Translations under genes and position numbers: made by a program
Source of the DNA: a virus
Reading direction: 5' to 3' (one strand)
IMG/VR virus record: IMGVR_UViG_3300037488_000722
Span: 1 to 23,775 of that record
Length of the DNA stretch: 23,775 bases
Notes under the pieces: model-generated
The model's database searches: none
What the model saw: the letters and a program-made list of their open reading frames with translations, nothing else
Told to the model about the DNA's origin: nothing
Part shown: positions 4,940 to 23,758 of the stretch, piece by piece
Numbering within the stretch: the stretch's first letter is position 1
Layout of the letters: each line of letters opens with the position of its first letter

Positions 4940-5620
4940 TTACTTGTCCTTGCCAAACCCAGATTGAAGTCCGGCCATGCCGATGGAGTCTCCGGCGCTT
5001 TGAAGCTGTTTGCCCCAGACCGCGCTCTTGCCGGGTTGCTGTTCGGCGGCAAACTGAGCCTGCATCTTCATTGCACGCTCCTGAGAACGAAGCTGGGAAA
5101 CCTGCTCTGGGCTCATGTCGTAATCCGCCATCTTCGCCATTGGGGTGCTTCCAAGGATGCCGCCAAACTCTTGAGCACCTTGGCCGGTGAGATCCAGCGA
5201 AGTCAGGCCAAGATCCCGAGCGAGAAGGTTGCGTCCGGCACCAGATCCACCGTATCCGCCCTCAAGAGACTTTGCCGCAGCACTTCGAGCAAGCTGCTGT
5301 TGAACGTCCAGCGGGATTTCACCACGGAGCTTGGCGAGAGCGTTGTTGGTCCGAAGACTTTGGCCGGTAGCGTAACCCGGAATTGACGTTTCGAGCATCT
5401 TGTTCAACTCGCCAGCGTTGAACTGGTTGCGCTTGGACTCCAACTGCTGCGCCCTCGGCATCAGGTTTCCCGCCTCGGTGTACTGAGCGCCAAGGTCCAG
5501 TCCTGGAGTCTCCGCAATACGCCGCAGTGCGCGTTTCGTTTGACCGGCAGAGTTGGCCGCCATGGCAGTTCCGCCAATTGCCATACCCGCCCCAACAACA
5601 CCTGCTGCGATTGCGCCCAT
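4940..5620 (-). CDS. Gly/Ala-rich probable internal virion protein
   Basis: The protein has 226 residues. The N-terminus is a Gly/Ala-rich hydrophobic segment (residues 1-25, including GVVGAGMAIGGTAMAA) that could insert in a membrane. Helices rich in Gln, Arg and Leu follow, and there is a Gly-rich GGYGGSGAGRN stretch near residues 121-131 followed by RDLGLTSLDLTGQG. This arrangement resembles small podovirus internal/ejection proteins that start with a Gly-rich hydrophobic head. It begins 3 bases after the stop of the sulfotransferase-like gene. No Shine-Dalgarno is visible; the ATG sits in an ATTTATGG context shared with two other virion genes. The family assignment is an inference. Confidence 0.7.
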   Translation of the reverse strand: MGAIAAGVVGAGMAIGGTAMAANSAGQTKRALRRIAETPGLDLGAQYTEAGNLMPRAQQLESKRNQFNAGELNKMLETSIPGYATGQSLRTNNALAKLRGEIPLDVQQQLARSAAAKSLEGGYGGSGAGRNLLARDLGLTSLDLTGQGAQEFGGILGSTPMAKMADYDMSPEQVSQLRSQERAMKMQAQFAAEQQPGKSAVWGKQLQSAGDSIGMAGLQSGFGKDK

Positions 5621-5623
5621 AAA

Positions 5624-6163
5624 TCAGAAGAGAGTTGCGACCCGATTTGAAAGTGAAGAAGTGCCGAAAGCCTGCTCCGCGTTGATCCGTTGAATCAGCA
5701 TCTTGAGAAGCTGTTCAACCTTGGACTTCGGAAAGGTGTCAGCCTGAAAGCAGTAGGACCAAATGCGGGTGAGACCCCTCACGGTCCACACGTCGTTGAA
5801 CGGGACAACCAGCGGCTGGTGCTTTTCAATCCACACCCGAGAAGCGTCCACCGCCTTGGCGTAATCCTTTTGGGGTATATCGTACCCAAACGCCATCTCC
5901 GCCGCCTGCCGACTGGATTCAGGATCCCGGTCAATGAACACCTTCCTTGAGCCTTCGATCACTGCTCCCGGAAGGTACTGGTAAGTGCCACAGTCCCCCA
6001 CGAACTCAAACTGTTCCTGAGCCTGTGCAAGCGCACCCTTCCAATCGTCCACGTCACTGATGATGTCGTGATACGAAAAGGCCCGAGGGTGCAAGTTCAG
6101 GAGCGTGGACAGGAATGCTGTTCCTGAGCGAGCGAGTCCGGTTACTTGGAGGACTGTGGCCAT
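5624..6163 (-). CDS. Sulfotransferase-like P-loop protein
   Basis: The protein has 179 residues. The start, VTGLARSGTAFLSTLLNLHP (about residues 7-26), matches the 5'-phosphosulfate loop of PAPS-dependent sulfotransferases (G-x-x-R-S-G-T-x-x-L). KVFIDRDPESS at 74-84 fits the second, 3'-phosphate-binding element, normally RDPR-x-x-x-x-S. Sulfotransferases move sulfate from PAPS to hydroxyl or amino groups of sugars or proteins. This one is shorter than the usual 250-300 residues and lacks an obvious large acceptor domain. It lies between the citrate-synthase-like gene and the first internal virion protein, 3 bases from each. A nucleotide-kinase-like P-loop protein is an alternative. The acceptor cannot be read from the sequence. 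Confidence 0.7.
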   Translation of the reverse strand: MATVLQVTGLARSGTAFLSTLLNLHPRAFSYHDIISDVDDWKGALAQAQEQFEFVGDCGTYQYLPGAVIEGSRKVFIDRDPESSRQAAEMAFGYDIPQKDYAKAVDASRVWIEKHQPLVVPFNDVWTVRGLTRIWSYCFQADTFPKSKVEQLLKMLIQRINAEQAFGTSSLSNRVATLF

Positions 6164-6166
6164 GGC

Positions 6167-6754
6167 TTAGGTCAGGATCGGGGACTTTTCCTGTTTCTCA
6201 TCCCATCCCTTGGTCATCTCGTTCACCCAAACGGGGAGACGCCAGAGGATGAAAAGCGAAGTCTCGGTTCCGCCACGGATGCCAAGCTCCGAGCACACGG
6301 CAGCGGTAATGAGTGCCGCATTCGGGTAGAGCGGCTTTCCAGCTTCAATCAGCCAACCAGAAAGCTCGTTGATGCGAGCCATGACCTTCGGAAAGCTGAC
6401 TTGCAGGATGGCCATGACATCGTTGAAAGCCGGGTCGATGCTGGTCTTGTAGAAGCTGTTGCCAAACCCGGCAATCATCTGACCTCGCCGGATCATGACT
6501 TGGACAACCTGTTTCTCGCCGTTCTCGTACAAGCCGCGAGCCGCCAGGATGGGCGCGTGAATGTGGCCGAGCGTGAGAACTGCGGCAGCGATGCCGTTCT
6601 CAATGCGCCCAGACCCCATCATGGCGTTCATCATGGTGATGGTGCTCACGTTGCGATTCGCCTTTGCAGCCTCTTGGTGAGCCCAGCAAAGAGCGTCAAG
6701 GAGCCTTTTCTGCTCCCCGTTCAGATTCGGAATGTAATCAATGGGTATTTTCAT
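6167..6754 (-). CDS. Half-length citrate-synthase-fold protein, probably not a normal citrate synthase
   Basis: The protein has 195 residues and corresponds to the C-terminal half of type II citrate synthase. NVST (35-38) matches the NAST element. GHIHAP (63-68) matches the GPLHGG loop and keeps its histidine at 66. GFGNSFYK (96-103) and DPAF (107-110) match GFGHRVYK...DPRA. LYPNAAL (142-148) matches LYPNVDF, and the C-terminal LFILWRLPVWVNEM keeps the arginine of the FAMARTVGW element. Compared with the family, the second catalytic His is Asn99, the catalytic Asp is Ala147 and the DPR arginine is Ala110. The N-terminal large-domain half is missing. Family membership is well supported by the order of motifs. 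Loss of normal activity is an inference. It lies 8 bases downstream of the adaptor-like gene. Confidence 0.75.
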   Translation of the reverse strand: MKIPIDYIPNLNGEQKRLLDALCWAHQEAAKANRNVSTITMMNAMMGSGRIENGIAAAVLTLGHIHAPILAARGLYENGEKQVVQVMIRRGQMIAGFGNSFYKTSIDPAFNDVMAILQVSFPKVMARINELSGWLIEAGKPLYPNAALITAAVCSELGIRGGTETSLFILWRLPVWVNEMTKGWDEKQEKSPILT

Positions 6755-6762
6755 CGTCGGAA

Positions 6763-7827
6763 TCAGACCATTCCCGAGTTGTAGACGCGATTGAAATCCG
6801 CGTTGCCTTCAGGGAGGTTGGTGATGACAAGTCGTTGCTGCGGGCTGTAAGCCTCAAGCTCTTGGCGAAGCATTCGGATGGCCCGCTTATGGTTGAGTTC
6901 GGATTGCTCATCCTCGTTCCTGCGCTCCTGCTGAATAGCAACCATCTCACGCTCAAGAGCGGGGAGCTTACTGATGATAAGCCAATCAGAGTCAACCAGC
7001 GCAGGGATGAACTCTTGCCGGTACAGGACCTCTACGGACAGGTCGGTACAGAGCGCATCTGCCGGTCGGCAACCGTCGCCGTGGTCTTTGCACTGCCAAG
7101 TCAGGTTGGTTCCGCAATTTGGCCGATTGACCAAGTAGGTCCTGCGGTAGGAAGGGTTGGTTTCAGAAGGTTGCCAAACGGCGATTTCGGTTTCGGTGCC
7201 CAAATCAGGGTCAACAGAAGTGGCGGTAACATTGTACTTGGTAACTGGCTTCTGAACTCCAGTCAGATTCGGTTTCTTGAACGTGCTGACGCTTTCAACG
7301 AACGGAAGCGCAAGGGTGAGGTATTCGCCGTCAATCACGTTGCCGCTTACAGTGTCCAGCGTGCGGATGACGACCCCGTTGGCATCCTTGCCTTGCAACA
7401 GGACCCGAAGCCCAACGTCGGCAGCGTTCGGGTACAGTCGAATGGTCGAATCCACGTCAAAGTCCCGATACTGGCAGGCGGGAGGAAGCCCACGCTCAAG
7501 AAGCTGTGGAGTCTGGCAATAGCCGTTGTCGCTGCATCCAGCTTGAGGAGCACGAACGTAGGTCTGGAACTCAAACCATCCGTTGCGGATCGGAATCGAC
7601 CATCCGCAGAGGTTGAATCCTTCGACGGTCTTCACTTCCCGAGGCCACGTCAGACACGCCCTTGGAGCGCAGACGTTCATTCGGGCGTACGTCCCCCACC
7701 ACTTCCCGTCTTCGGAAAGCCGGTACTGCGCGTCATTCAGAAGCTGAACGAAACGAGGGTCGCAAGCGTTTAACCCGACTGCTGCCGGGAGTGCGCTGTT
7801 TTTGGCGTTTCCGAGTGTGGTTCTCAT
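6763..7827 (-). CDS. Probable tail adaptor (gp11 / tail tubular A-like) protein, Cys-rich
   Basis: The protein has 354 residues. Residues 25-80 (FVQLLNDAQYRLSEDGKWWG, then WPREVKTVEGF and IPIRNGWFEF) read like the start of T7 gp11-type adaptors that join the portal to the nozzle. Beta-rich stretches about metabolite-free 'RLYPNAADVGLRVLLQG' follow, and the C-terminal 70 residues are helical and charged (EREMVAIQQERRNEDEQSEL). Eleven cysteines are spread over residues 20-255, unusual for a phage tail protein. Its ATG overlaps the stop of the fibre-like gene (ATGA, 7827-7824). The adaptor assignment rests on weak sequence resemblance and on its place beside the nozzle gene, so another neck or tail role is possible. 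Confidence 0.6.
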   Translation of the reverse strand: MRTTLGNAKNSALPAAVGLNACDPRFVQLLNDAQYRLSEDGKWWGTYARMNVCAPRACLTWPREVKTVEGFNLCGWSIPIRNGWFEFQTYVRAPQAGCSDNGYCQTPQLLERGLPPACQYRDFDVDSTIRLYPNAADVGLRVLLQGKDANGVVIRTLDTVSGNVIDGEYLTLALPFVESVSTFKKPNLTGVQKPVTKYNVTATSVDPDLGTETEIAVWQPSETNPSYRRTYLVNRPNCGTNLTWQCKDHGDGCRPADALCTDLSVEVLYRQEFIPALVDSDWLIISKLPALEREMVAIQQERRNEDEQSELNHKRAIRMLRQELEAYSPQQRLVITNLPEGNADFNRVYNSGMV

Positions 7828-12475: not shown

Positions 12476-12774
12476 GTACCCTCAAGCGAAGCGATTTCCC
12501 ACCTGGAGGCTGGAGGTTTTACCAACCGGAAACGAAGTGGAACGCCCCCGACCCGCTTATCAACAGCTTCCACCGCATGGTCGCTGTCATTTATCAGCAC
12601 CGAGCGGCGAATCCGCAGGCAAGCTTGAGTTTGGACACTGACAAGATTGGCCAGGATCTTGAGGAATACACCCGGACAAGGCTGAACATCCGTCCGGTTG
12701 CTCCCTACGCTGATTTGCCTGACAAACCCGCTGCAAAGAAGCGCAGAGGGTGCGGAACTTGTGGAAGCCGATGA
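12472..12774 (+). CDS. Small protein with C-terminal CxxC, unknown function
   Basis: The protein has 100 residues. The N-terminus has aromatic residues (WRFYQPETKW), the middle is charged, and the last ten residues are basic with two cysteines (RRGCGTCGSR). No family is recognised. The start ATG overlaps the terminase stop (ATGA at 12472-12475), and its own stop overlaps the next start in the same way, so it is translationally coupled on both sides. The basic CxxC tail could bind metal or nucleic acid, but this is not shown. A small-terminase role is possible from position but the protein lacks a clear helix-turn-helix. Confidence 0.7.
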   Translation: MSTLKRSDFPPGGWRFYQPETKWNAPDPLINSFHRMVAVIYQHRAANPQASLSLDTDKIGQDLEEYTRTRLNIRPVAPYADLPDKPAAKKRRGCGTCGSR

Positions 12775-14723
12775 ACTTTTTAGACCGCATCAAGTCGGAC
12801 CTTCGGGGTCTTCGGATTCTCGCTGACTGGATCGGTGAGGGAGCCAAGCCGGTTGACCAAAAGCTGGCAAATGCGAGAGCGCAGCACTGCATCAGCTGTC
12901 ATGGAAGGCACAACAAGTTCGATCATCGACGGCTTGAGAAGTCGATTGCCGAAGCCATCCGCGAGCAAGAAAGCATCAGGAGCAAGGTTGCTCTCAGAAC
13001 TCCTCAAGATGGCCGGTTGCATTCCTGCTTGGACTCAAACGGCAAGAAGGGTTGCGGATGCTACCTGAAACTCAAAGTCTGGGTTCCGATTGAAAACCAA
13101 GGCGACTTCCCGATGCCCAACTATTGCTGGGTCACGAAGGAGCAGCAGAAGTTGCCAAAGACTCCAGAAGGGGTGACGGCAAAGATGATTTCGGTTCAGC
13201 GGTGGGCAGCGTTTGGCGATGTTCTGATGGCTCTTCCGCTAATCGACAAGCTGGCGGCAAAGGGCATCTCTGTGACGCTGAATTGCGCGTCCATGATTGC
13301 GCCCATCGTCAAAGGGCATCCGTCCATCCGCAGGGTTGTCACCGACAAGTCGATGGCTTGTGAGATTGACCTGGACAACTCGTACGAGCGGAACCAAGAG
13401 CGGGCAACCAAGTCAGTTCAGCAACTCTTCATCGAAGCGTCAGCGCATCAACTGAAGCGGGTTGGCCTTGATCCAATCGAATCGACCAACTTGGTCTCTC
13501 GGATTCACATCCACGATTGGGAGAAGCAGGAAATCCTCAAGCGTGGCGCTAACATCCCGAGGCCATGGGTCTGCATCAATTACCGCTCCCAGTCTTGGCC
13601 GTCTCGCTCCGTTGACGAACGCTCGCTGGTTGCGGCTGCTAAAAAGATCAACGGTTCCTGCATCTGGACTCACCCTGGGCCCGTTCCTGACGGGTTGCAC
13701 TCCATCAAGACGAACTCCTTCCGGGAACTGATGGCGTTGCTCTCGATCTCTGACCTGTGCATCACGCCGGACTCTGGCCCAATGCACGCGGCGGCAGTGG
13801 TTGGATGCCCCGTCATCGCGCTGGAGCAAAGCATCCCGATTGCTCTCCGCCTGTCCAACCTGACCGACCACACCGTTCTGTCGGCACCCGTCGATTGCGT
13901 GCGTTGCTTGGAGTGGAAATGCCCCAAGGACGAAAAGAAGCCACCTTGTCAGGTGTTTGATCCATCCGTCATTTCAAACGCCGCCAACAAGCGTTTGGAC
14001 GGCATGGGGATGGTTTCTGCGGTGATCCCAGTCTACAAGCAGCATCCACGACTCGACCGTTGCATCAAAGCGGTGCCTGACAACGTGGAAGTTGTCGTCT
14101 CGCTGGATGGGCCGGACAAGTTCGAGGTGAAAGGAGCGGACATTGTTTCACCTTCCACCGGCAAGCGGGTTGGCTTTGGTAAGACATGTACCCGTGGAGC
14201 GCGAGCAGCGAATGGCGAGTTCTTGTTGTTCCTGAACGATGATTGCTACCTGAACACGGGAGCCGTGGAACGAATGCTGGAGGAAATGAAACCTGACGTT
14301 GCCGTTGTCGGGTGCCTGCTTCGGTATCCAGACGGCAGGATTCAGCACGGGGGAACACTCCGCCTTGGGATTGAGCAGGGTTACGGCCACATCGACCACG
14401 GCAGGATTGCGCCGTCAATTACCGCTCCAAAGGAGATGGAGTTCGTCACTTTCGCTGCCGTTCTCGTTCGCAGGAAGGCGTTCTTTGAAGTGGGCGGGTT
14501 TGACGAGGATTACGACACCTACTGCGAGGACTCAGACCTTTGCTTGAGGCTTCGGAAGGTGGGATGGAAGGTGATTTACACCCCTCACGCCTCCGCGATC
14601 CATGACGAAAGCCAAACCACGTCTCCGATGAAGAGTGAGCTTTGGCACAAGTCGCAGGCGGTGTTCATGAAGAAGTGGCGGAGATACTTTACGGAAAACG
14701 CGGGCAACCAACTTGGACAATGA
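12771..14723 (+). CDS. Two-domain glycosyltransferase: GT9 (heptosyltransferase-like) fused to GT2
   Basis: The protein has 650 residues. Residues 1-135 hold a possible zinc-binding region with Cys 40, 43, 86, 95, 97 and 119. Residues 139-400 match GT9 ADP-heptose:LPS heptosyltransferases, with FGDVLMALP at 148-156, TPDSGPMHAAAVVGCPVIAL at 332-351 and a terminal Cys cluster (376, 379, 384, 393). Residues 414-645 match GT2: VSAVIPVYK, a DxD-region NDDC at 489-492, GGFDEDYD and EDSDLCLRLRKVGW at 586-599. A GT9-GT2 fusion would add or extend a sugar chain, but the donor and acceptor are unknown. ATG 12771 overlaps the previous stop and has GGAAG upstream, which is better than the GTG at 12750. 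Confidence 0.85.
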   Translation: MNFLDRIKSDLRGLRILADWIGEGAKPVDQKLANARAQHCISCHGRHNKFDHRRLEKSIAEAIREQESIRSKVALRTPQDGRLHSCLDSNGKKGCGCYLKLKVWVPIENQGDFPMPNYCWVTKEQQKLPKTPEGVTAKMISVQRWAAFGDVLMALPLIDKLAAKGISVTLNCASMIAPIVKGHPSIRRVVTDKSMACEIDLDNSYERNQERATKSVQQLFIEASAHQLKRVGLDPIESTNLVSRIHIHDWEKQEILKRGANIPRPWVCINYRSQSWPSRSVDERSLVAAAKKINGSCIWTHPGPVPDGLHSIKTNSFRELMALLSISDLCITPDSGPMHAAAVVGCPVIALEQSIPIALRLSNLTDHTVLSAPVDCVRCLEWKCPKDEKKPPCQVFDPSVISNAANKRLDGMGMVSAVIPVYKQHPRLDRCIKAVPDNVEVVVSLDGPDKFEVKGADIVSPSTGKRVGFGKTCTRGARAANGEFLLFLNDDCYLNTGAVERMLEEMKPDVAVVGCLLRYPDGRIQHGGTLRLGIEQGYGHIDHGRIAPSITAPKEMEFVTFAAVLVRRKAFFEVGGFDEDYDTYCEDSDLCLRLRKVGWKVIYTPHASAIHDESQTTSPMKSELWHKSQAVFMKKWRRYFTENAGNQLGQ

Positions 14724-15271
14724 TTACCAACCGGATCGGTAAGTTTGAGGAGTCAACGAGGATTGTGAAAGCCCTCCACATTGAGGGTAAGCGTGCGCTT
14801 GATCTTGGGTGCGGAAAGGCGGAACACACGCTTCCTCTTGGAGACTTAATGCTGGTCGATGCGATCAAGATGGAGGGCGCACCGGAAGGGGTGTTGATTG
14901 CGGACATTCGGAACATCGACCCCATCGTTGAATCCAACCGATTCGGAACGGTGTACCTGTTGGACGTGATGGAGCACTTGACCAAGGTGGAAGGTCTCAA
15001 GTTGCTCAAGGAGCTTGAACGCCATTGCGACCGGATCGTGTTCTTCACTCCACTTGGGGATCTTTGGATGACAAACGACGACCACCCCTACTCTCACAAG
15101 TGCGGGTGGATGCCGAAGGAAGCCGTTGACCTTGGGTACAAGGTTTGGGAATGGCCAATCTTCCACAAGTTTGCTGACGGACAAATTCACGGGGCGTTCT
15201 GGGCGTGGAAGGACTCAGTGAAAACGCCGAGTGCAGATTCCATTGCAAAACTCGCGGGGGTTGCGCCGTGA
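14720..15271 (+). CDS. SAM-dependent methyltransferase, class I
   Basis: The protein has 183 residues from ATG 14720. Motif I is ALDLGCGKA at 26-34, the acidic end of strand 2 is LVDAIK at 45-50, and LLDVMEHL at 80-87 matches the DVxEH of Methyltransf_11 proteins. It lies between two glycosyltransferase genes with 4-base overlaps, so its target is most likely a sugar or a lipid-linked saccharide, as in O-antigen and glycan clusters. The longer frame starting at 14642 overlaps the previous gene by 81 bases and lacks the ATGA junction, so I reject that start. The substrate is not visible. Confidence 0.85.
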   Translation: MITNRIGKFEESTRIVKALHIEGKRALDLGCGKAEHTLPLGDLMLVDAIKMEGAPEGVLIADIRNIDPIVESNRFGTVYLLDVMEHLTKVEGLKLLKELERHCDRIVFFTPLGDLWMTNDDHPYSHKCGWMPKEAVDLGYKVWEWPIFHKFADGQIHGAFWAWKDSVKTPSADSIAKLAGVAP

Positions 15272-15999
15272 CTTTCTACGGTCCTGTTTACGGTCCAGAC
15301 GGTGAGCAACTGCACGTCTTGGAAGATTGCTACGGCATATTCTATTGGAATGACGCCTGTTGGCACAGGTCTGTTCCAGAGGACAGCAAAGGGCTAACCT
15401 ACCTGGATGTTGGGTTCCACACGGGTTTCAACCTTTTGCGATTCGAGCAACGGGGAGGAATTGCCACCGGACTTGATTTCCACGGGTTGGGAGAAATTCA
15501 AGCTGGAGCCGAGGGGTGGGATGTCGGAGATGAGTTTTCAGGCGACACGGCAAAGCGAATCAGAAGCCTCTACAATGGGGCTTACAGCATGCGGGTTGGA
15601 GGATTCGACAATGGAGCAATCGTTCCGGCCAGCGTCGGAAAATTCACCGTCGTCTCCGCCTTAAACGTGATCGAATACATGGACGATCCGCTGTCTTGCG
15701 TCAGAAGCCTTTTTAACCACGCAACGGACAGGGTTCTGATTGCAACGGACACCGCCCTGGAAACAATTTATCCTTCAGACATTCCGCCATTGAAGGTCAA
15801 GCTGAGTCGCAAAGACCTTGTTGCTGCATGCCCTTGGCCATGCGTTGTTTGGGAGTATGACGGAGGAGCAACCAAGCAGGCGCAAATCTTTGCCTGCGCC
15901 ACCAGAGAGGGCTCAAGCCTTCCGCCTGTGGATCCAAGCGACCTTCGTTGGGACATGGCAAAAACCAACACGCAGAAATTCTGGGAGTCGAAGAAATGA
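15268..15999 (+). CDS. SAM-dependent methyltransferase, second copy type
   Basis: The protein has 243 residues. Motif I is YLDVGFHTGFN at 45-55 and the strand-2 acidic end is TGLDF at 67-71. VVSALNVIEYMDDP at about 128-141 fits the post-motif region of Methyltransf_23/11. The N-terminus has a Tyr-rich cap. The start is GTG 15268, which overlaps the previous TGA (GTGA) and is preceded by a GCGGGGG stretch. A 21-residue longer frame from 15205 overlaps the previous gene by 67 bases and is not preferred. It is not a duplicate of the first methyltransferase: motif I and length differ. Target likely a sugar or glycan in context. Confidence 0.75.
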   Translation: MTFYGPVYGPDGEQLHVLEDCYGIFYWNDACWHRSVPEDSKGLTYLDVGFHTGFNLLRFEQRGGIATGLDFHGLGEIQAGAEGWDVGDEFSGDTAKRIRSLYNGAYSMRVGGFDNGAIVPASVGKFTVVSALNVIEYMDDPLSCVRSLFNHATDRVLIATDTALETIYPSDIPPLKVKLSRKDLVAACPWPCVVWEYDGGATKQAQIFACATREGSSLPPVDPSDLRWDMAKTNTQKFWESKK

Positions 16000-16889
16000 T
16001 CCTCCTGAATCAGCCTCACACTCCTTGGGCGTGCATGTTTGCCGAAGCCTTCAGCGAGCTTGAGATCCACATACCGGAATGGAGGTTTGAGCTAAGGGAT
16101 CTTCCAGAGAATGTCTCCGTCGTTCCGGTGGACGATATTTTACCCCAATCGTACGACTGCATCATCACTGATTTCGCCCATGATGATTTTGCCAAAGTGT
16201 CAACGAAAAGGAGGATTTCAGTTGTTCACATTGAGCAAAACATTGGGGATGAGAGCCACAGAAAGCTGATTGAGAAGGTGTACGCCTCAAATGACTTCGT
16301 GGTTGCCGTTACGGACCACAAGAAATGGACTTTGCAGGATTTTGCTTTGTCTCCGAAGACTCGCGTAATCAACTGTATCGCTCCAGAAAACCCGATGCTT
16401 CCATTGGATACAGGTATCATTGGATGCGTTCAGAATCGGATGACGCCTGAAAAGATGGCCATTTGGGACGCTGTTGCAGAGCATCAAAACTGCGTTGCTA
16501 TTGGGCATTTCAACGCCATCACCAAAGGAGGGGCTTTCGTTCCAAACGGGACAAACGCATATCTATCCGTTCTCAAGACGCTTTCAGTGTTTGTGAATGT
16601 GGTCAGCGGAGACGCTTTTGGCATGTCCCCAGTTGAAGCAATGTCCTTTGGAATCCCAATGGTAACTGGCTTCTCAAGGGACATCGAAGACGAGTTCATT
16701 TCCGGGTGGAACTGCCTGATGACAGACAACCGTGGACACAGATCGGCATTGCAAATAGCCGCCTTTGCAATTCAACTCCGCAATGACCAGTCCCTCCGTG
16801 AGCGCATTGGAAGTGCCGGAAGGGACACGGTTAGGCGCATCTTCTCCAAAGAGAAATTCAGAAGCTCTTTTGAAGAGATCATGTCATAA
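15996..16889 (+). CDS. GT4-type glycosyltransferase (GT-B fold)
   Basis: The protein has 297 residues from ATG 15996. The C-terminal half carries DAFGMSPVEAMSFGIPMV at 206-223, the nucleotide-sugar-binding E-x7-E element of GT4 enzymes with the first Glu as Asp. It also has the usual end helix with LRNDQSLRERIGSAGRDTVR. The N-terminal half is short for GT-B and lacks a clear Gly-rich loop, so the acceptor domain may be reduced. Base composition looks lower in GC than the neighbouring portal (about 43% in two sampled lines against 62% in one portal line), which suggests recent transfer. It ends 9 bases before the portal start and closes the modification cassette. Confidence 0.8.
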   Translation: MILLNQPHTPWACMFAEAFSELEIHIPEWRFELRDLPENVSVVPVDDILPQSYDCIITDFAHDDFAKVSTKRRISVVHIEQNIGDESHRKLIEKVYASNDFVVAVTDHKKWTLQDFALSPKTRVINCIAPENPMLPLDTGIIGCVQNRMTPEKMAIWDAVAEHQNCVAIGHFNAITKGGAFVPNGTNAYLSVLKTLSVFVNVVSGDAFGMSPVEAMSFGIPMVTGFSRDIEDEFISGWNCLMTDNRGHRSALQIAAFAIQLRNDQSLRERIGSAGRDTVRRIFSKEKFRSSFEEIMS

Positions 16890-21025: not shown

Positions 21026-22615
21026 ATGGCCGCAGCAGATGTTATCAGTTGTCGCGCCTTCACGGACATCCTGATTACTCAGGAGCCGGTGTATGACACC
21101 GAAATCGTGAAGGACATTCGTCCCTCCGCCTCCGGGCTGTTGGGCTACTACATGACGGCACCGTGGGATGCTTTCACATCCACGACTCACACGTTTGACC
21201 GTGTGAAAGCCGTCTTTCCGAACCTGACCAAGCCTTGGCGTGCTACGACCTCAGGCAACTGCGTCGGGACTCCGTGCGATCCGGTCTCCAACCAGATTGG
21301 CATGGGCAACCAGCGGTTCACTTACTCGCTGGAGGAGCAGTCTTGGGAATCCCAACTCATGTGCTTTGACGAGCAGATGACGCGGACCAAGGCCAAGGAA
21401 AGTATCGCCTACTTCATCTCCGACATCCTGCGTCCGGCGACTCAGTGGATCACGAATTTCTGGCTGATGCGTCAGGCGATGCAGTTGTCCGGACGAAAGA
21501 TTGTCGTGACCACTCCGGTTGCTGGCCAGCTTCCTGAGTTCGACTTCTCTTGGGACACGGACTCCGAAGGCAACGATGTCTACGAGTACCTGAACATCAC
21601 CAACGCTGACACTGGCGCTCCGATTGACCCCACGGGTCTTCTGACGCAGAACGTGCTTCAGCGCGAAGTGTTCCCGCTCTATCAGGTGGGCGCAACCGAA
21701 GCCGGTAAGAACGAGTACAACAAGCTCGAACTGCACACCGACATCGACTCCGCGCATTACCTGAGTCGCGAAGACCCGACGCTGTACAACCAGTGGCGTT
21801 TCAACGAGTTCGACAAGGCTTCGGCTGAGTACTACAAATACGGATTCACCGGCATTGTTGGCGACTACATGGTGAAGGTCTGGCAGACGCCGCTTCGGTT
21901 CAACCGGGTGTCCACGGGTCGGTTCCAGATGGTTCAGCCGTACGTCAATCGTGCGGTCACGAACGGTCTCGGCAACTTCCCGAACCCCGACTACCAGAAC
22001 GCTTGGTATCAGTTCAGCCAGATCAACAACCCGGCTGGCCTGCGATTCATGACCTTCTCCCCGGAGGCTGTGAATCCCCAGATGCCGTACCTCGTTCGCT
22101 CCTACGCTGGTCAGTGGCGCTTCGCCATCGACAACCTGGGCGCGGATTGCGACGGCAAGCCGATTGCCAACTACCGCCGCAACAAGGGCAAGTGGTGGGC
22201 TGACTTCCGCTGGGCCATGAAGGCGGAACATCCGGAGTTCCTTGTCAGCATCTTCCACCTCCGCCAGCCGCCTTGCTTGACCATTGTTGAACCTTGCGGT
22301 GAAGACCCCGGCTACCCCGAGCAGGTCTACGACAGCGCGAACGATGCGTGCGATACTACGATCACGTTCGTTGCGGTTGCCCGAGCCAGTGGGACGTTCT
22401 CCATCCCGGCAAACGGCGTAACCTGCAACGGCAATGCCGTGGCAACTGGAGCACTTTCCAACGCTACTCTGGCTGGCTTTGTTGCCGCCCTTCAAGTGGC
22501 TTGGGATGCGGCTAATCGGGATGGTACTTGGAGCGTGGTTGACGCCGCCTCCAACACCATTCAGGTCACTGGCACCACCTGCGAAAACGTGGGCTTGGCG
22601 TTCATCGTTGACTAA
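21026..22615 (+). CDS. Probable major capsid protein
   Basis: The protein has 529 residues. It follows the scaffold and is preceded by a structured leader and followed by hairpins, as highly expressed capsid genes often are. Residues 1-430 are mixed alpha/beta with many Trp, Tyr and Phe, including a FDEQMTRTKAKESIAYF helix and a NKGKWWADFRWAMK segment. Residues 440-529 form an extra beta-rich part (TITFVAVARASGTFSIPANG...) with Gly/Ala/Thr repeats, like an added surface domain. Ten cysteines are present. The start ATG lies in the ATTTATGG context. The capsid call rests on gene order and size rather than a recognised signature, so the HK97 fold is assumed. Confidence 0.75.
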   Translation: MAAADVISCRAFTDILITQEPVYDTEIVKDIRPSASGLLGYYMTAPWDAFTSTTHTFDRVKAVFPNLTKPWRATTSGNCVGTPCDPVSNQIGMGNQRFTYSLEEQSWESQLMCFDEQMTRTKAKESIAYFISDILRPATQWITNFWLMRQAMQLSGRKIVVTTPVAGQLPEFDFSWDTDSEGNDVYEYLNITNADTGAPIDPTGLLTQNVLQREVFPLYQVGATEAGKNEYNKLELHTDIDSAHYLSREDPTLYNQWRFNEFDKASAEYYKYGFTGIVGDYMVKVWQTPLRFNRVSTGRFQMVQPYVNRAVTNGLGNFPNPDYQNAWYQFSQINNPAGLRFMTFSPEAVNPQMPYLVRSYAGQWRFAIDNLGADCDGKPIANYRRNKGKWWADFRWAMKAEHPEFLVSIFHLRQPPCLTIVEPCGEDPGYPEQVYDSANDACDTTITFVAVARASGTFSIPANGVTCNGNAVATGALSNATLAGFVAALQVAWDAANRDGTWSVVDAASNTIQVTGTTCENVGLAFIVD

Positions 22616-23521: not shown

Positions 23522-23758
23522 ATGCCCTGCGACACTCAACAACTCTTGAGCGATGGGCGTTGTTTCTCCAACGCCTGTCTTACCCCTGACCAGCAGACCA
23601 TTGTGCAACTTCAGCTGCTCAAGGAACTTGCTGGTTACGGCGGTACTGTTCAGGAGTTGTTGAGTGAAGGCAGATGCTTTTCAAATGCCTGCCTCACACG
23701 GGGGCAACAGACGCAGATTCAAATTCAGTTGCTCTGCGAGATCAATGATGGGTTGTAA
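23522..23758 (+). CDS. Two-repeat Cys-containing small protein
   Basis: The protein has 78 residues built of two copies of one unit: residues 5-36 and 43-74. Both contain LLS(D/E)GRCFSNACLT followed by a Q-rich helix (Q-x-x-I/V-Q-I/L-Q-LL). The two CFSNACL elements are spaced 38 residues apart. Similar short C-x4-C plus Gln/Leu helix units occur in some phage virion proteins, but I do not recognise a named family. A small structural or assembly protein is likely from place. The gene follows with a 3-base gap after the previous stop. Confidence 0.75.
   Translation: MPCDTQQLLSDGRCFSNACLTPDQQTIVQLQLLKELAGYGGTVQELLSEGRCFSNACLTRGQQTQIQIQLLCEINDGL
23534..23743 (+). repeat. Internal duplication in the last gene
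   Basis: The units 23534-23629 and 23648-23743 encode nearly the same protein sequence, but the codons differ (for example TGTTTCTCCAACGCC against TGCTTTTCAAATGCC). The duplication is therefore old and kept at protein level, not a recent DNA copy. Confidence 0.7.

Follow-up and report, generated by a model that had tools for sequence, protein, structure and literature searches.

A phage gene for the C-terminal half of a citrate synthase fold with an altered active site

The window, which is the whole of an IMG/VR virus record (23,775 bases), contains a gene whose product is confirmed to correspond to the C-terminal half of the fold shared by citrate synthase (CS) and citryl-CoA lyase (CCL). 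Most of the residues that CS needs for catalysis are replaced in this protein. We assign a probability of roughly 45% to the reading that the protein is specific to phages, is an accessory product outside the virion, and uses its CS half fold to bind a ligand in the infected cell.

Fold and active-site residues

The open reading frame lies on the minus strand (6754→6167), starts with ATG, and encodes 195 amino acids. The protein matches Pfam PF00285 (E = 2.9e-6, 27.0 bits; cut-off 27) and belongs to the CS-fold superfamily by both profile and fold; a genome search gave the same frame 25.8 bits, slightly below the cut-off. The best NCBIfam score was obtained with the CCL model PRK06224 (2.2e-9, 37 bits), far under its cut-off of 212. 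A family profile searched against the PDB matched 28 chains, all of them CS, methylcitrate synthase, or CCL, with CS chain 2p2w as the best match (3.5e-14). The AlphaFold2 model (pLDDT 84.9, pTM 0.81) has the CCL structure 6hxp as its first Foldseek match (E = 4e-6, probability 1.0, TMq 0.71).

A first-pass annotation had proposed a C-terminal-half CS fold and a structure search against citrate synthases as its check. The profile and model matches agree with this proposal, and all 50 of the 50 PDB matches listed by Foldseek are CS, methylcitrate synthase, CCL, or ACLY. The motifs that it had placed in CS order are all present, although three residues (TSI), not four, separate GFGNSFYK from DPA. 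The Pfam alignment begins at position 165 of 357, and ∼210 N-terminal residues of Escherichia coli GltA are missing; by both measures the protein is devoid of the full-length N-terminal part of the CS large domain.

We mapped the active site onto GltA from E. coli MG1655, with the following correspondences.

6167–6754, minus strand: phage protein of CS/CCL fold with altered active site (195 aa; profile, AlphaFold2, Foldseek, and residue map)
6548–6568, minus strand: GHIHAPI (residues 63–69), equivalent of GPLHGG; H66 corresponds to GltA H264 and is kept
6428–6469, minus strand: GFGNSFYKTSIDPA (residues 96–109), equivalent of GFGHRVYK-DPR; H305 is replaced by N99 and R314 by A109
6302–6331, minus strand: LYPNAALITA (residues 142–151), equivalent of YPNVDFYSG; D362 is replaced by A147
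6239–6241, minus strand: R172, corresponding to GltA R387, kept in every aligned member

In addition, H229 of GltA aligns with A32, and the GG of the GPLHGG loop has become AP in the window protein and GP in relatives. In CS active sites, Arg407′ is contributed by the partner chain; it has no counterpart here, because the phage chain ends earlier. R387 is therefore the only kept member of the oxaloacetate-binding set H229, R314, R387, and R407′. Judging from the alignment, neither the carbonyl-polarising His of CS nor its general base is intact. The pocket is nonetheless partly intact, since S37 corresponds to the Ser that in pig CS makes contact with the H264-type His.

The protein is thus not classed as a citrate synthase enzyme, as His264 alone is kept of the catalytic set His264/His305/Asp362 in the GltA alignment. 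Neither is it classed as a CCL, given its score against the curated NCBIfam model and the absence of the GxGH and N-x-D motifs. The first-pass annotation had called these residues correctly (a single kept His, Asn99, Ala147, and a lost DPR arginine) and had overlooked the kept R387 equivalent.

A phage family under purifying selection

An alignment-guided scan of viral contigs, with a pattern that accepted either His or Asn, yielded 18 relatives. A second scan yielded 70 loci, a set that is biased because the scan demanded a GFGNSFY or IDPAW stretch. GFGN occurs in all of the first set (43 different sequences), and Ala occupies the Asp position in nearly all; the exceptions carry Asp (L057) or Gly (L084). 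In L057 (3618–4181), the motif reads PNADLY, which restores an Asp at the general-base position of CS; the His position remains Asn.

Because the second scan selected on the Asn-containing motif or the stretch beside it, conservation of the Asn was rechecked on loci fetched via neighboring genes. GFGN was found without exception among the CS-like genes shown from a tail-gene anchor and among 67 CS-like genes found via a sulfotransferase-like gene; the loci fetched in this way include the divergent L145.

Pocket invariants were scored on 11 representatives with <85% identity and include N35, S37, H66, P68, R73, GFGN (96–99), F101, D107, P144, N145, E164, R172, and W176. The median dN/dS is 0.08 over 91 pairs. 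The family is under strong purifying selection, and the changed pocket is conserved, with ∼35–45% identity across unrelated phages that span 41% to 68% GC.

Half length and lost catalytic residues are what a decaying auxiliary metabolic gene, formerly a citrate synthase, would leave behind. We consider decay hardly credible, however, as purifying selection (dN/dS ∼0.08) acts on the gene and even deeply diverged members retain both the length and the substitutions. The earlier suggestion of reuse after the loss of normal CS catalysis fits these data on both counts: the catalytic residues are gone in the GltA map, and the substituted pocket is maintained.

The invariant pocket also bears on a somewhat doubtful alternative, namely that the protein is an enzyme with another activity, acting on a CoA thioester or a keto acid, putatively via H66, N99, S37, R73, and R172. 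The polar residues are strictly conserved, among them the H66/S37 pair and the N99 that stands where CS has His, dN/dS is enzyme-like, and in one lineage the gene usually adjoins that of another enzyme-fold protein. However, the position of the Asp has not been taken over by a conserved general base; it is Ala in nearly all members, Asp in L057, and Gly in L084.

In a tree, 14 phage representatives split from 42 cellular proteins with a support of 100/100; branches are long and the tree is unrooted. Cellular scans with GFGN-type patterns returned no relative. With an [NH] pattern, at least 42 cellular CS/CCL relatives were obtained (22–30% identity), and those listed keep HGG and GxGH, as well as N-x-D, where the motifs are readable. 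We describe a new phage family; a close cellular member was not found in our scans.

No tblastn match was found among INPHARED isolated phages for the window protein or two relatives, nor among plasmids for the window protein. Searched by structure, BFVD yielded no viral protein resembling CS (best E = 0.34), and neither PHROG nor BFVD names the family in any entry. Single-sequence viral scans returned nothing for the CS-like protein, the 529-aa protein at 21026–22615, or the terminase. PADLOC defense profiles did not match the window protein, and one relative gave a chance-level BrxL match (E = 0.055). Literature searches for phage-encoded pseudoenzymes or inhibitors of citrate synthase found nothing on point.

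An optional gene in tail and replication loci

Across the window's lineage, the gene order is terminase (divergent), tail gene, further genes, cl7, CS-like gene, sulfotransferase-like gene, and cl8. The neighbors of the CS-like gene are the following.

6763–7827, minus strand: upstream flank cl7, a lineage-conserved tail-module gene
5624–6163, minus strand: sulfotransferase-like P-loop protein of 179 aa, immediately downstream (PF13469, weak at E = 0.016)
4940–5620, minus strand: downstream flank cl8, a lineage-conserved gene

With the tail gene as anchor, a scan detected 378 members of the lineage, and the 80 best of these were retrieved. Of the 77 loci among these 80 that were newly retrieved, 20 carry the CS-like gene, and 29 have cl7 followed by cl8 with neither insert gene; in relatives without the CS-like gene, cl8 directly follows cl7. 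L085 shares 96% identity with L087 as far as the final codons of cl7; beyond this point, L085 alone has an insert of ∼1.1 kb. The CS-like gene is thus optional in the window's lineage, sits between two tail genes, and, in the lineage loci compared, does not belong to the conserved core of the tail module.

The terminase of this lineage has one INPHARED match (23% identity) and the tail protein none; the lineage is almost absent among isolates, yet hundreds of tail-protein relatives exist in IMG/VR. Elsewhere in the window, four accessory-type genes lie between the terminase and portal-like genes (12750–16889). They encode two methyltransferase-like proteins, one GT1/GT4-like protein, and a protein of 657 aa that combines glycosyltransferase domains of the GT9 and GT2 types, and they possibly form a surface or virion modification cassette. 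At the right-hand end of the contig, a small open reading frame (23522–23758) contains an internal near-exact repeat (LLSDGRCFSNACLT / LLSEGRCFSNACLT).

The first-pass annotation had placed the gene next to an injection protein. According to PF13469 (weakly) and Foldseek, the immediate downstream neighbor is instead a sulfotransferase-like P-loop protein; its model (pLDDT 84.9) matches tyrosylprotein sulfotransferases best (1.5e-4). Where both flanks are present, no member of the window's lineage was seen to have the CS-like gene without this neighbor. An obligate two-gene cassette was nevertheless rejected: the sulfotransferase-like gene occurs alone at the same site in L109, L284, L296, L297, and L299–L301, and in T7-like phages the CS-like gene stands alone, with no sulfotransferase-like gene near it in the loci checked.

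The sulfotransferase-like fold binds PAP/PAPS, and 3′-phosphoadenosine is common to PAP/PAPS and CoA. This CoA/PAPS link between the neighbors is only suggestive, because either gene can be found without its partner. In a comparison with L020, L145, and relatives, the loop of the sulfotransferase-like protein is of the RSGT type in the window, L065, and L109, and reads RFGS in most relatives, which may hint that this protein too has lost its original chemistry in a subclade.

In T7-like phages (L067, L068, L072, L018, and L019), the CS-like gene lies in the early/replication region. The order is T7-type RNA polymerase, metallophosphoesterase, CS-like protein, and Gp2.5-like ssDNA-binding protein, followed by RusA, ThyX, primase/helicase, and DNA polymerase; in L018 and L019 the CS-like gene is found further along, ahead of the primase/helicase gene. 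Among loci with a visible ssDNA-binding gene, a metallophosphoesterase-anchored scan counted 16 that carry the CS-like gene and 49 that lack it. L216 has the gene and L217 lacks it; the sequences to either side match at ∼92% identity, and the two differ by a clean single-gene insertion of ∼560 bp. An additional context is the GC-rich contig L084. The same family has been gained or lost as an optional gene in unrelated phages, in early as well as late loci.

These contexts make a virion or tail structural protein with the CS fold as scaffold, as had been suggested, very unlikely. The gene does lie among tail genes in the window's lineage, and in relatives it overlaps the upstream gene by a few bases, but close relatives with an otherwise intact module lack it, and its T7-like neighbors are genes for RNA polymerase, ssDNA-binding protein, RusA, ThyX, primase, and DNA polymerase. 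Accessory virion proteins exist, and since the window-lineage gene sits among late tail genes, its product may be a low-copy virion protein there.

Early-locus accessory genes of T7-like phages often encode host-takeover proteins. This, together with the retained C-terminal half of the CS fold, is consistent with a putative mixed dimer with host citrate synthase, or with another host enzyme being bound and inhibited or redirected. We consider this unlikely, as the ∼210 N-terminal GltA residues and the Arg407′ region are missing, the invariants cluster in pocket motifs and not surface-wide, and one interface would have to fit the hosts of phages at 41% to 68% GC.

Proposed function and comparison with known systems

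According to our preferred reading, ligand binding by an accessory protein, the CS-like protein would be made in the infected cell, where its remodelled pocket would bind a small molecule but would not carry out the CS condensation. The most probable ligand would be a CoA thioester or a related adenine-nucleotide/carboxylate compound. Infection would then benefit because the protein sequesters or senses a host metabolite, or because it serves as a regulatory subunit. Against this reading, the losses of H229, R314, and R407′ should weaken oxaloacetate/citrate binding, and CoA binding may be altered by the replacement of GG with GP or AP in the HxGG loop.

Unrelated phages share a consistent pocket change in an optional gene, so the CS fold appears to have taken on a new role in infection. 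Tentatively, and with low confidence, we picture a transferable host-takeover family in which the fold now serves as a metabolite sponge or as a new catalyst on a CoA/3′-phosphoadenosine compound. Phages carry working metabolic enzymes; here, the fixed swap of catalytic residues and the movement between unrelated phages as a single gene suggest that the family serves a conserved function in infection, either at the acetyl-CoA/citrate node or on related cofactors. The protein is small enough for direct testing.

Among known systems, CCL (Hydrogenobacter, 6hxp), taken together with the CS-homology module of ACLY, is the closest fold and likewise a short CS-fold protein, in which the H264-type His and R387-type Arg are kept as in the phage protein. 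Whereas CCL relatives hold GxGH and NVD, the phage protein has GFGN and PNAA and is ∼70 aa shorter. With E. coli GltA (PF00285), it shares the fold of the C-terminal half and the motif order, but it lacks the N-terminal ∼210 residues and equivalents of H229, H305, R314, D362, and R407′.

The CS-homology domain of human ACLY, for which a non-catalytic role in CoA loading has been argued (PMC10115795), is the nearest precedent for non-catalytic CoA handling. The laboratory-made D1026A variant of ACLY carries the same Asp-to-Ala change in this domain; CoA still binds to the mutant and fills the hole left by the Asp (PMC10115795). D1026A is, however, an engineered single change in a large tetrameric enzyme, whereas the phage family has also lost the His and the DPR Arg.
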